From Erysipelothrix anatis (lineage in GTDB: Bacteria; Bacillota_I; Bacilli_A; Erysipelotrichales; Erysipelotrichaceae): a DNA stretch of 42,797 bases. Location: contig NZ_WTSX01000017.1 in assembly GCF_009828745.1 (NCBI RefSeq), positions 1 through 42,797 on the forward strand. The letters run 5' to 3'. Below, one piece after another: positions 30,919 through 35,515 of the stretch. The position numbers and the translations under genes were made by a program. How positions within the stretch are numbered: the stretch's first letter is position 1; every line of letters begins with the position of its first letter. A model generated the notes under the pieces. That model had not been told where the DNA came from, did not search any database, and saw nothing but the letters and a program-made list of their open reading frames with translations.

Positions 30919-30940
30919 AAAAAGCTCTTACGAGCTCTTT
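30918..30940. terminator. Bidirectional terminator between convergent membrane protein genes
   Basis: AAGCTC (30922-30927) faces GAGCTC (30932-30937) in an imperfect A/T-flanked stem. It ends transcripts of both convergent genes. Confidence 0.65.
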
Positions 30941-32178
30941 GATGTATATATTTTTTTCTGAATTACACCAGATCCAGGTTTTTTTAGTTGGCTTTCAAGA
31001 TACTCATAATAAGCCCCGGGAGTTGCCACACCACTTATTTGTATTAATCGCATTCCACTTGATTCAATAATTTGATCAGCAACCAGAACGCAATTGGTCG
31101 TAAACACGTTGTATGTTTTGAACTTTCCGCGCTTAAACTTATAGAAATCTACTTTTAGATTTGCTTGACGGAGTCGTGTTAGATAGTTTTCGCCTTCTGT
31201 ATCTTGTTGATATGGGTAATCATAATAAAACGCATCTTCAAGAATTGTATCAATACGTGCTTCTATTTGACTCGCTTGCTCTTGTGTTAAATGAATAAAG
31301 AAACGAAAGACTGTTGTGCCCGTATCGACTGCATATTGGACAAAATCTTTCTCACTTCCAATAATCATGACACCGTCGCCATAGGCCATTGATTTTGCAC
31401 GGTTGAAGTTATCATGGGCACCATAAGAATAAATACTGCCACGATATCCTATATCAAGGTGGCCGATTCGACTATGTCCTTCATCTTTAGCATAAAGGTA
31501 TACGGATAACATTGTACCCGTTGAGGGCTCAACCTCGCTCGAAAAACTGCCAGGATTTTCCAACTCAATACGATTAATACTCTTTATTAAAAAATTCGGA
31601 ATTAATGCAGCAAAAAAGACTGGCAAGGAAAAACTAATCTTGATTTTATTACGGAAAAGAACTTGAACTGCCGAAAATCCCTCCACTATACCATATAGAA
31701 TAATGTATGATCCAACTTGTAAATTAATAATAAAACGGTTTTCAACACCACTGAAAATCAGTAATAAACCCATGCCAAATGAAATTAGAAACGCAATAAT
31801 TTTTCCAAACTTTCCGGGTTCGTTGTCCTTAATTTTGACATAAAGTTCAAGTCCGTGGACTGCTGCATTAAACATTGCCCACATCCCAAAAATAATTGCA
31901 ATGATCTCGATATAGAGGTACTCCGTCAGTCCCAGCAATATAAATAGACCCAGTGCACCTAAACCAATTAACCCATTGAAGATATTCCGATTTCGGATAC
32001 TTTGATAAATCGAAACCACAAACGAAGCAATTAATGCAATACGGATAGCGAGATAAATGAGTGACCACATGAGATTATCACGATAAATAAAAAGTACCCC
32101 TATTACGATTAAAACTACAGACACGAGTATCTGTATCCATAAAACTGATTTTTCTTCCCGTGAAAACACATGTTTCAT
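30928..32178 (-). CDS. HdeD-like polytopic membrane protein with a C-terminal permuted papain/NlpC-P60-like domain
   Basis: The first 200 of 416 residues hold about seven hydrophobic segments in paired form, resembling HdeD/DUF308 proteins. A soluble domain follows (about 220-400). There, H240 in GHLDIGYRGSIYSYGAHD and C363 in FTTNCVLVADQI occupy the His-first, Cys-last order of circularly permuted papain-like families (DUF4105/YiiX type). The ligand could be a lipid, peptide or cell-wall amide; none is established. The start at 32178 has AGAGG at 6 nt. The longer in-frame extension crosses the promoter (TGTTATAAT, -10 at 32202-32197) and is rejected. Domain assignment is by motif only. Confidence 0.62.
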   Translation of the reverse strand: MKHVFSREEKSVLWIQILVSVVLIVIGVLFIYRDNLMWSLIYLAIRIALIASFVVSIYQSIRNRNIFNGLIGLGALGLFILLGLTEYLYIEIIAIIFGMWAMFNAAVHGLELYVKIKDNEPGKFGKIIAFLISFGMGLLLIFSGVENRFIINLQVGSYIILYGIVEGFSAVQVLFRNKIKISFSLPVFFAALIPNFLIKSINRIELENPGSFSSEVEPSTGTMLSVYLYAKDEGHSRIGHLDIGYRGSIYSYGAHDNFNRAKSMAYGDGVMIIGSEKDFVQYAVDTGTTVFRFFIHLTQEQASQIEARIDTILEDAFYYDYPYQQDTEGENYLTRLRQANLKVDFYKFKRGKFKTYNVFTTNCVLVADQIIESSGMRLIQISGVATPGAYYEYLESQLKKPGSGVIQKKIYTSKSS

Positions 32179-32196
32179 ACAATACCTCTTTGCTTT

Positions 32197-32204
32197 ATTA
32201 TAAC
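32197..32204 (-). promoter_or_regulatory. Extended -10 promoter of the HdeD/papain-like gene
   Basis: On the minus strand TGTTATAAT, with the hexamer at 32202-32197, lies 19 bp before the chosen start codon. It shows that the upstream in-frame extension is not translated. The rest of the gap up to 32350 contains an A/T-rich region with a TAGAAT serving the divergent DUF805 gene. Confidence 0.55.
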
Positions 32205-32350
32205 ACTGAAATATAGCCTCGTCGTCGAAAAACGCATGTACATTTTCGATACACACTCTCATATTCTCATAAATTTTCAAATATTGTATACATATTACTG
32301 TTTTTCTGTTCGTAGATATTATAGAATAGGACAATAAAGGGGGAAAACTT

Positions 32351-32737: not shown

Positions 32738-32772
32738 AAAAGGCACTCGACCTACGTCAAGTGCCTTTTTTT
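32738..32772. terminator. Intrinsic terminator of the DUF805 gene
   Basis: AAAAGGCACT (32738-32747) and AGTGCCTTTT (32760-32769), extended by T. It is also usable by the convergent deacetylase gene. Confidence 0.88.
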
Positions 32773-34111
32773 ATGTTCTATAGTAAATTTTCTTTGGTTC
32801 AATTGGGATGTTACGTGATTCGAGTAATTCTTCGACCGTGACAAATTTATAACCCTCAGCCGATAATTTTTCGAGCGCACACTTAGTTCCTTCAACAGTA
32901 CTTGAATACAGATCATGCATGAGAACAATTCCACCATCATGCGCATATTCCACAACTGTATCGCAAACTGATTTGCCATCTTTATAACGCCAGTCATTTG
33001 AATCAATTGACCAGTTAATAAATGTGACATTTGAATTTTCACGAACATACTCATTAGCATTCCCGTATGGTGGGCGGACCATGATTTGACCATCATATCC
33101 CGAAGCATCGCGGATTGCTTGCTCTGTACTCGCAATTTCTTGCTGGATTTGCTCTGGAGTCGCTTTATTCAAATTTGGATGTGAAAAAGTATGACTCGCT
33201 ATTTGATTTCCTGAATCAAGAATTTGTTTCACAATGTCTGGGTAACTTCCTACACGACTCCCCACTGTAAAGAATGTCGCTTTTCCATTATACGTTGCAA
33301 ACAAATCGATTAATGCCAAGGTATTATCACCATGTGGTCCATCATCGTATGTGAAAGCAATCAATTTCTCATTGCCATCGATTCCTTGATCAAGGTAGGC
33401 TGATGGAACATCGGCTGCAGTTTTATCAGTCTCAAACGGTGGTTCATCAAAGAAATGGGCAGACTCTTTTAAATCGTACTCGACCTTACGATCATTCGAA
33501 AACAGACACATTTTCTGATCGTTGAGCAGCCAATTTGTTTTCCCATCCAACGTCGATGATGCAATAACTTGATCACGCGGCATTACTGGTTCTAAAATCT
33601 TACGGTAGTCACTCATGACCTTTCGATCTGCTTTGTCAACGAGCAGATCTTTGGGACTTACTTCCGTATCTGAATTCATGTCAAAAACACGACTTTCCAC
33701 ATTGGTGAGTGCACCATCAAGTTGTTGGTAGAATGTAACACTCAAATATTTATCTTTATACGTCGATACCGCGTAGTCTTGGAGAAATTCGACATCGGTT
33801 CGTTCACTGTCGGTAAACACCTCTTGGTTTCGAGTTTGGGTATTTGTAAGCACATTGTCCACAAATGTATCTGCAGATTTGTATCCCGTCTTTGGATAAT
33901 GATACGCAAAATATCCTTGATCCATTGATTTTAAATCCTTAACTTGGGTTCCAATTTGCTTATTATCTGTATCCACATTCTTTAAATGACTTGGATATTT
34001 GGGAAACATACCACTTATAATATATATTCCTAAACCTACTACAAGTAGGATTGATAATGCAAAAGGAATCGCAAATTTATAATTAATTTTATAACGTCTT
34101 CGCTTTGCCAT
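32771..34111 (-). CDS. Membrane-anchored peptidoglycan/polysaccharide N-deacetylase (PgdA-like)
   Basis: This 446-residue protein has a basic N-terminus and one TM anchor (about 13-34), so the rest is extracellular. Residues about 60-220 resemble the DUF3298/RsiV-like region found before PgdA domains. The C-terminal NodB domain (about 248-435) has all five motifs: TYDDGP (D256, D257), SHTFSH (H307, H311), RPPYGN (346-351), DSNDWR (370-375) and IVLMHD (H399). Such enzymes remove acetyl groups from cell-wall GlcNAc and give lysozyme resistance, which matters for host-associated bacteria. GAGG lies upstream of the ATG. A hairpin in the upstream gap may be part of its leader. Confidence 0.88.
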   Translation of the reverse strand: MAKRRRYKINYKFAIPFALSILLVVGLGIYIISGMFPKYPSHLKNVDTDNKQIGTQVKDLKSMDQGYFAYHYPKTGYKSADTFVDNVLTNTQTRNQEVFTDSERTDVEFLQDYAVSTYKDKYLSVTFYQQLDGALTNVESRVFDMNSDTEVSPKDLLVDKADRKVMSDYRKILEPVMPRDQVIASSTLDGKTNWLLNDQKMCLFSNDRKVEYDLKESAHFFDEPPFETDKTAADVPSAYLDQGIDGNEKLIAFTYDDGPHGDNTLALIDLFATYNGKATFFTVGSRVGSYPDIVKQILDSGNQIASHTFSHPNLNKATPEQIQQEIASTEQAIRDASGYDGQIMVRPPYGNANEYVRENSNVTFINWSIDSNDWRYKDGKSVCDTVVEYAHDGGIVLMHDLYSSTVEGTKCALEKLSAEGYKFVTVEELLESRNIPIEPKKIYYRT

Positions 34112-34306
34112 TTATCTTTACCTCTTCTTAATAATCCTATCACACTCATCGTTTAAATCTAACCCCTTCCAATTGATTATCTTTTGAAATTTTCGGGAGT
34201 TCACCATCATTTCATGAACTCTTCCGGTAGTGTTAGGTTTCTTCACATTATCTTTACAATATAGTCAAATACCAAAATTACACATAATGTTATCGATGGT
34301 AATTGG
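34112..34306. promoter_or_regulatory. Non-coding gap upstream of the deacetylase, with a hairpin
   Basis: No gene is seen. GAGTTCA (34197-34203) and TGAACTC (34215-34221) form a 7-bp stem, extendable by CGG/CCG with a bulge. On the minus strand there is no T-run after it, so it is not a terminator. It may lie in the 5' leader of the deacetylase mRNA. No convincing -35/-10 pair was found for that gene. Confidence 0.35.
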
Positions 34307-34335
34307 TTGATTTTTTATTTACAAAAAGGTATTAT
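34307..34335 (+). promoter_or_regulatory. Promoter of the candidate small RNA
   Basis: TTGATT (34307-34312), exactly 17 bp, TATTAT (34330-34335). The predicted start at about 34339-34342 falls at the base of the first hairpin of the RNA. Confidence 0.65.
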
Positions 34336-34338
34336 GTT

Positions 34339-34484
34339 AGTAACAACTTCAAATAATAGATAAGTTGTTACTGCATCCGTCGTAGATGACTTCATAATTT
34401 CCTTCTTAACCACTTATGAAGACCACTACGATGTTACGCACTATCTCTCTTAAAAGAAATGGGTTCCCGTCCATTTCTTTTTTT
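34339..34484 (+). ncRNA. Candidate structured small RNA or mutY leader (about 145 nt)
   Basis: The span has a promoter at its head, a terminator at its tail and no convincing reading frame. Hairpin 1 is a perfect 11-bp stem, AGTAACAACTT (34339-34349) with AAGTTGTTACT (34362-34372). Hairpin 2 pairs 34378-34385 with 34426-34433 and CTTCATAA (34390-34397) with TTATGAAG (34414-34421), around a 4x4 internal loop. Its 16-nt apical loop (34398-34413) holds TTTCCTTCTT, complementary to Shine-Dalgarno-like AAGAAGGAAA. Hairpin 3 is the terminator, AAAAGAAATGG (34452-34462) with CCATTTCTTTT (34471-34481). I do not recognise it as a known RNA family. It could be a trans-acting sRNA or an attenuator before mutY. 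Confidence 0.6.
34452..34484 (+). terminator. Intrinsic terminator of the candidate small RNA
   Basis: An 11-bp stem (34452-34462 with 34471-34481) is followed by T-runs to 34484. It stands 44 bp before the mutY start. Confidence 0.85.
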
Positions 34485-34528
34485 GCGTTCAAATACCCAA
34501 AGTCGCGAATATGGGCTATACTATACGC

Positions 34529-35515
34529 ATGACATTTACAGATAGATTAATAACATGGTATCGCGCAAATAAACGAGACTTACCGTTTCGTCGTGAGCGT
34601 GATCCCTATAAAATTTGGGTCAGTGAAATCATGGCTCAACAAACACAAATTGCAACGATGCTCCCTTACTATGAAAAATGGGTTGCGAAGTATCCAACTG
34701 TTCAAGCTTTAGCAGCAGCTGATATTGATGAAATTCTCAAAATGTGGGAGGGATTGGGTTATTACCGCCGTGCTCGTAACTTACATGCCGGGGCACAGTT
34801 TGTTGTGGAACATTTTGACGGTGTTCTGCCCGCGGATAAACAGGCACTTATGAGTATTCCTGGCATTGGTGACTACACTTCTAGTGCGATTGCCTCAATT
34901 GCTTTTAGTTTGCCGGAAATAGTGATTGACGGTAACGTCAAGCGTGTCATGGCACGATATCTTAATTATACCGAGAACGTAAATGCACGAGCAGCCCATA
35001 AGGTCTTTGATGCGTTTCTTAAAGAAGAGCTTATTAAGGATGGTGCGGATCCTAACGAATTCAATCAAGCATTAATGGAGTTAGGGGCCCTTGTATGTAC
35101 TCCTAGTAACATAAACTGCGAAGGGTGTCCTTTTGAGGAAATGTGCGCTTGTTGGCGTGGAGAAGTCGTGGGTCAGGTTCCCTTTATACCCAAAAGCAAA
35201 CCTGTGAAAGCGTATGATAAATCAGTCTTTATCCTCGTTAAAGATGGAAAATTGCTTATTTCGAATGAGCACGATGATGGTTTAATGGAAGGTCTCTTCC
35301 GTTTACCACAAATTGATGGTCACCAAGATTTGAAACCTGTCACAACTCTTGTCCATAAGTTTTCTCATTTGCATTGGAATATTGAAGCTTATCACGTTGA
35401 TTCGTTAGACATTGGAGATCACAATTGGTTCTTTGTGCCTCTTCAAGAAATTGTGGACACTTATCCTCTCGTGACGGCTCATCGCAAGATTCTCCAAAAT
35501 CAGAAGATATTATAA
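34529..35515 (+). CDS. mutY: A/G-specific adenine DNA glycosylase
   Basis: This 328-residue repair enzyme removes adenine mispaired with 8-oxoguanine. It has E33 (VSEIMAQQTQ), the helix-hairpin-helix SIPGIGDYTSSAIAS (109-123), catalytic D134 (IDGNVKRVMAR) and a [4Fe-4S] site C190-x6-C197-x2-C200-x5-C206. The C-terminal NUDT1-like domain (about 220-328) that recognises 8-oxoG is present but short, with FSHLHWNIEAYHV. The start at 34529 (MTFTDRLITWYR) fits the family better than the ATG at 34511. Neither start has a clear SD, so initiation may be leaderless or weak. It lies 44 bp behind the candidate small RNA. Confidence 0.93.
   Translation: MTFTDRLITWYRANKRDLPFRRERDPYKIWVSEIMAQQTQIATMLPYYEKWVAKYPTVQALAAADIDEILKMWEGLGYYRRARNLHAGAQFVVEHFDGVLPADKQALMSIPGIGDYTSSAIASIAFSLPEIVIDGNVKRVMARYLNYTENVNARAAHKVFDAFLKEELIKDGADPNEFNQALMELGALVCTPSNINCEGCPFEEMCACWRGEVVGQVPFIPKSKPVKAYDKSVFILVKDGKLLISNEHDDGLMEGLFRLPQIDGHQDLKPVTTLVHKFSHLHWNIEAYHVDSLDIGDHNWFFVPLQEIVDTYPLVTAHRKILQNQKIL

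Follow-up and report, generated by a model that had tools for sequence, protein, structure and literature searches.

Comparative sequence analysis identifies a structured, non-coding gene upstream of mutY in Erysipelothrix anatis, which is real and independent of mutY. On balance, it is best regarded as an independent gene for a trans-acting small RNA (sRNA) of ∼145 nt that probably occludes Shine-Dalgarno (SD) sequences through a C/U-rich loop. The gene was studied within a window of 42,797 nt, the whole stretch of DNA that was analysed, where it sits between a divergent polysaccharide deacetylase gene and mutY. The features of the locus are as follows.

32771–34111, minus strand, divergent: polysaccharide deacetylase gene (PF01522)
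34307–34335, plus strand: putative sRNA promoter, −35 TTGATT (34307–34312), 17-bp spacer, −10 TATTAT (34330–34335)
34340–34484, plus strand: sRNA, ∼145 nt, the 5′ end placed from the promoter and the 3′ end from the terminator
34340–34371, plus strand: 5′ hairpin, 32 nt, GTAACAACTT / AAGTTGTTAC, stem near-invariant, loop variable
34372–34440, plus strand: second hairpin, long and bulged, with compensatory changes in both inner helices
34397–34413, plus strand: apical loop, ∼16–17 nt, ATTTCCTTCTTAACCAC, putative pairing site
34440–34451, plus strand: pyrimidine-rich, single-stranded linker, ∼11 nt, core CACTATCTCTC at 34439–34449
34452–34484, plus strand: intrinsic terminator, 11–13 bp stem (hairpin 34452–34481) followed by a T run
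34517–34522, plus strand: −10-like box of mutY, TATACT, 6 nt before the ATG, separate from the sRNA
34529–35515, plus strand: mutY (HhH-GPD plus NUDIX_4)

The MutY protein of the window shares 98% identity with its counterpart in E. aquatica VA92-K48. The left-hand neighbour of the sRNA varies: it is the deacetylase gene in the window and in genome G007, and a gene for a membrane protein of 416–468 aa with no Pfam match in G003 and G012. The window itself encodes a 468-aa membrane protein without a Pfam match at 30928–32334 (minus strand), relatives of which adjoin the sRNA locus in the latter two genomes.

Promoter and terminator

The original prediction envisaged a promoter with 17-bp spacing, and three ordered stems and a strong terminator bounding a non-coding span of ∼145 nt. 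All of these elements are present. Taken on its own, the promoter match in the window is at chance level, with six promoter-like sites in a 1.4-kb region against 5.2 expected. It becomes convincing because comparison across relatives reveals a constant geometry: TTGNNN-17-TATNAT precedes the sRNA in all 12 homologues, the spacer sequence having diverged, and the −10 box ends exactly 4 nt before the first model position in every one of the 12, an arrangement whose chance is ∼0.0015 per sequence. The terminator is likewise kept as a structure among relatives, with a diverged sequence.

Distribution

BLAST located the sRNA once in the window's own genome and in ten of 60 genomes overall (the window's own counted), all of them Erysipelothrix. 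Nine distinct sequences went into a first covariance model. It recovered a single copy in each of 12 out of 13 Erysipelothrix genomes, the newly detected ones being the divergent homologues of G008 (E 2.5e-7) and G011 (E 1.7e-4). Nothing convincing emerged when 302 further genomes of the order were searched with this model: a lone weak match in G031 (E 0.005) is devoid of loop and linker and was taken as a chance hit driven by the terminator. A second covariance model, run against 395 genomes drawn evenly from the class, found matches in Erysipelothrix only, and searches of plasmids and phages returned no match to the sRNA. At the sensitivity of these searches, the large covariance runs employing Infernal's stricter filters, the family is restricted to the genus.

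No known family had been recognised at first, and in an Rfam 15 scan of the whole window no family reached its gathering score; matches at E values up to 10 were chance similarities to eukaryotic snoRNAs and miRNAs only. 6S RNA (RF00013), which forms one long bulged hairpin, was excluded, as the fold described here comprises three hairpins and the 6S RNA of this genome is located elsewhere (G000:C1:17137-17298).

Fold and structural conservation

The predicted fold of 34340–34528 has a free energy of −47.4 kcal/mol, compared to −28.6 ± 3.5 in dinucleotide-preserving shuffles (z = −5.4), and none of 200 shuffles was as stable. Across nine sequences aligned plainly with MAFFT, the share of paired cells is 94.7%, and 14 cells are changed on both sides versus 4.7 ± 2.2 in shuffles. 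When G008 and G011 are included in an alignment fitted to the covariance model, a procedure that favours structure, 94% of cells are paired and 13 double-change pairs are observed against 3.7 ± 1.4 (0/500 shuffles); structures slid along this alignment fare far worse, with 45–63% pairing. The stems, whose conservation upstream of mutY in relatives had been proposed as a check, are conserved in the homologues, and the double-sided changes fall in the terminator and in each of the two inner helices that the long hairpin contains. The 5′ hairpin is less informative for covariation, because its sequence is nearly invariant and the departures in its stem are mostly G-U pairs. The length of its loop varies freely, and the stem is still present in G011, cut to six pairs. 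The claim of a new small RNA is well supported: the gene is conserved throughout the genus, its promoter geometry is constant, its stems show compensatory changes, a terminator is present, and neither a conserved ORF nor an Rfam family was found.

Apical loop and linker

The apical loop, AUUUCCUUCUUAACCAC, is predicted to be single-stranded and does not vary among ten genomes. The same prediction holds for the linker core, CACUAUCUCUC, which is identical in all 12 genomes and represents the most conserved segment of the sRNA. In the two deepest members, G008 and G011, the loop has been rebuilt into CUCCUUUC, an inner hairpin and a CCACAC loop, and the inner hairpin displays complementary changes between the two (GACAG/CUGUC versus GACGG/CCGUC). 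Five genomes (G002, G004, G006, G009 and G012) repeat the linker motif as a second CUCUCU run, which lies in the bulge on the 5′ side of the long hairpin. Outside the genus the loop motif finds one-mismatch matches only, at approximately the level of a reversed control; two viral contigs contain the loop 17-mer without the rest of the sRNA.

Probable mode of action and putative targets

RNA polymerase would start ∼4–6 nt past the −10 box and stop at the terminator, and the independent gene would give rise to a trans-acting sRNA of ∼145 nt. The hairpin at the extreme 5′ end probably shields the transcript from 5′-end decay. The long second hairpin would present the pyrimidine-rich apical loop UUUCCUUCUUAACCAC and be followed by the pyrimidine-rich linker CUAUCUCUCUU, both unpaired and both suited to act as pairing sites. 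Purine-rich SD regions are the most likely partners of the loop, and pairing there would block translation initiation. Obstruction of the SD by pyrimidine-rich loops is an established mode of several Firmicutes sRNAs (PMC4132741, PMC10433868, PMC4438229): in LhrC, CU-rich UCCC sites lie in the loop, in the linker and in the loop of the terminator (PMC4132741), RoxS has three C-rich regions (PMC10433868) and the csRNAs expose a CCUCCU loop (PMC4438229). The Erysipelothrix loop (UUUCCUUCUU; CUCCUUUC in deep members) fits this mode, which provides the leading explanation.

The suggestion that a C/U-rich loop could pair with SD sequences is plausible. Complements to the loop are not enriched: sites complementary to the 17-nt loop with up to three mismatches are not commoner than those of a reversed control pattern. 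The motif AGAAGGAAA precedes an ATG more often than its control does, as expected of any SD-like motif, and a CCUCC core would pair better with SDs than this loop. Several recurrent loop-complement sites were discarded as coding sequence (for example in a release-factor gene and a membrane protein gene). As for the linker, the complement of its 11 nt occurs in the genomes searched almost only in the sRNA gene itself.

The scarcity of complements to a segment conserved in 12/12 genomes, together with the lack of enrichment for the loop, would agree with an sRNA that mainly binds a protein or sponges another RNA, loop and linker being recognition sites and mRNA pairing minor or absent. We consider this unlikely, while giving it some weight. 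sRNA seeds are often only 6–8 nt long, a length that the target searches could not resolve; the pyrimidine-rich composition suits SD pairing, and the alternative has no known partner protein.

The search for complements of the loop gave one weak candidate target, the SD of rplM, encoding L13. The rplM site, UGGUUUAGGAGGAAAU, is the best-conserved near-complement at a start site, with a predicted energy of −18.1 kcal/mol over ∼15 bases, including one mismatch and one G-U pair; the best non-self site in the window reaches −16.1. Ten genomes that carry the invariant loop keep this rplM site with little or no change. In G001, the genome without the sRNA, the site is altered and the pairing lost (−9.8), and in G008, whose loop differs, the pairing has not clearly been kept. 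The L13 ribosomal-protein operon is normally autoregulated. The candidate site adjoins a near-invariant region before rplM (L117 1002–1053, minus strand) that resembles L13_leader (RF00555); the match is weak (21.9 bits against a gathering score of 44, E 0.84), but it concerns the right gene and strand. Since this apparent autoregulatory leader could by itself explain the conservation of the site, rplM is regarded as a candidate only. An sRNA acting in trans on ribosomal-protein synthesis by way of its loop and the rplM SD seems decidedly improbable; if true, the pairing would couple the sRNA to the ribosomal-protein operon.

Relationship to mutY

The sRNA is found directly upstream of mutY and on the same strand in 11 of 12 genomes, an arrangement that would be expected of a cis-acting leader or attenuator in which transcription stops after the third hairpin in a controlled way and mutY is fed by read-through. 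This part of the original prediction did not survive comparison, and we give it very little credence. mutY possesses a −10-like hexamer of its own (TATACT, TATAAT or TATAGT), which every Erysipelothrix genome examined places 6 nt ahead of the ATG (7 nt in G011) and which recurs in two of the three remoter relatives (Erysipelotrichaceae L014, L016); a box so close to the start codon predicts a leaderless mutY mRNA. In G003 a stretch of ∼2 kb that contains other ORFs lies between the sRNA (618126–618279) and mutY (615191–616168). The sRNA is absent from the genome of G001, including the stretch upstream of mutY, whereas mutY and its −10 box are kept. A switch between GTTAC (34433–34437) and GTAAC (34340–34344) had also been proposed: both motifs occur at these positions, but the switch was rejected because the 5-nt complementarity on which the antiterminator pairing would depend is confined to the window species and its 97%-identical sister.

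It is equally hard to credit that the stretch works as DNA, for example with the 5′ inverted repeat as part of an operator, or encodes a small peptide, even though that repeat is nearly invariant and occurs only here in the genome and short frames exist in single species: the other helices show compensatory changes, the terminator is kept as structure only and no ORF is common to the homologues on either strand, the minus-strand SD-like AGAAGGAAATTATG being followed, in several relatives, by a frame that reads Met-Lys-stop. The G-U changes within the 5′ repeat retain RNA pairing and break DNA symmetry, which favours an RNA stem over a DNA operator; a hidden ORF on either strand was likewise rejected.

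Comparison with known small RNAs

The CiaR-dependent csRNAs of streptococci resemble the Erysipelothrix sRNA in being independent genes with their own promoter and terminator and an anti-SD-like pyrimidine loop. However, csRNAs consist of two stem-loops ∼40 unpaired nt apart and are preceded by the CiaR site NTTAAG-N5-TTTAAG (PMC4438229), whereas the Erysipelothrix sRNA has three hairpins, a ∼11-nt linker and a single copy, and direct reading of 34260–34340 revealed no TTAAG and hence no such site. Both the stem-loop layout and the CiaR site place it outside the csRNAs. Similarity to LhrC of Listeria lies in the several C/U-rich single-stranded sites, in loop and linker, that could pair with the SD. 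LhrC is multicopy and carries three redundant UCCC motifs (PMC4132741); the Erysipelothrix sRNA, in contrast, is single copy, has UUUCC/CUCUCU motifs and matches no family. Only the window species and its sister carry a UCCC, which lies in the terminator loop, and membership in LhrC was rejected on the grounds of copy number and this limited occurrence. RoxS/RsaE of Bacillus and Staphylococcus share pyrimidine-rich single-stranded regions, which are used there against the SD (PMC10433868). The loop in Erysipelothrix is similarly pyrimidine-rich and predicted to be unpaired, but RoxS/RsaE rely on C-rich regions and the Erysipelothrix RNA, with its UUUCC/CUCUCU motifs, exhibits no Rfam similarity to them and no family match. 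The comparison suggests that the sRNA most likely belongs to no described family and works like LhrC, RoxS/RsaE and the csRNAs while being unrelated to them.

Implications for RNA regulation in Erysipelothrix

Erysipelothrix is a genus of animal and zoonotic pathogens, distant from the Firmicutes models, and a search of the literature found no paper describing sRNAs in it. A genus-wide, single-copy and structurally constrained RNA with two near-invariant single-stranded motifs offers a good entry into RNA regulation in this lineage, and the Erysipelothrix sRNA is a ready candidate for an Rfam family.
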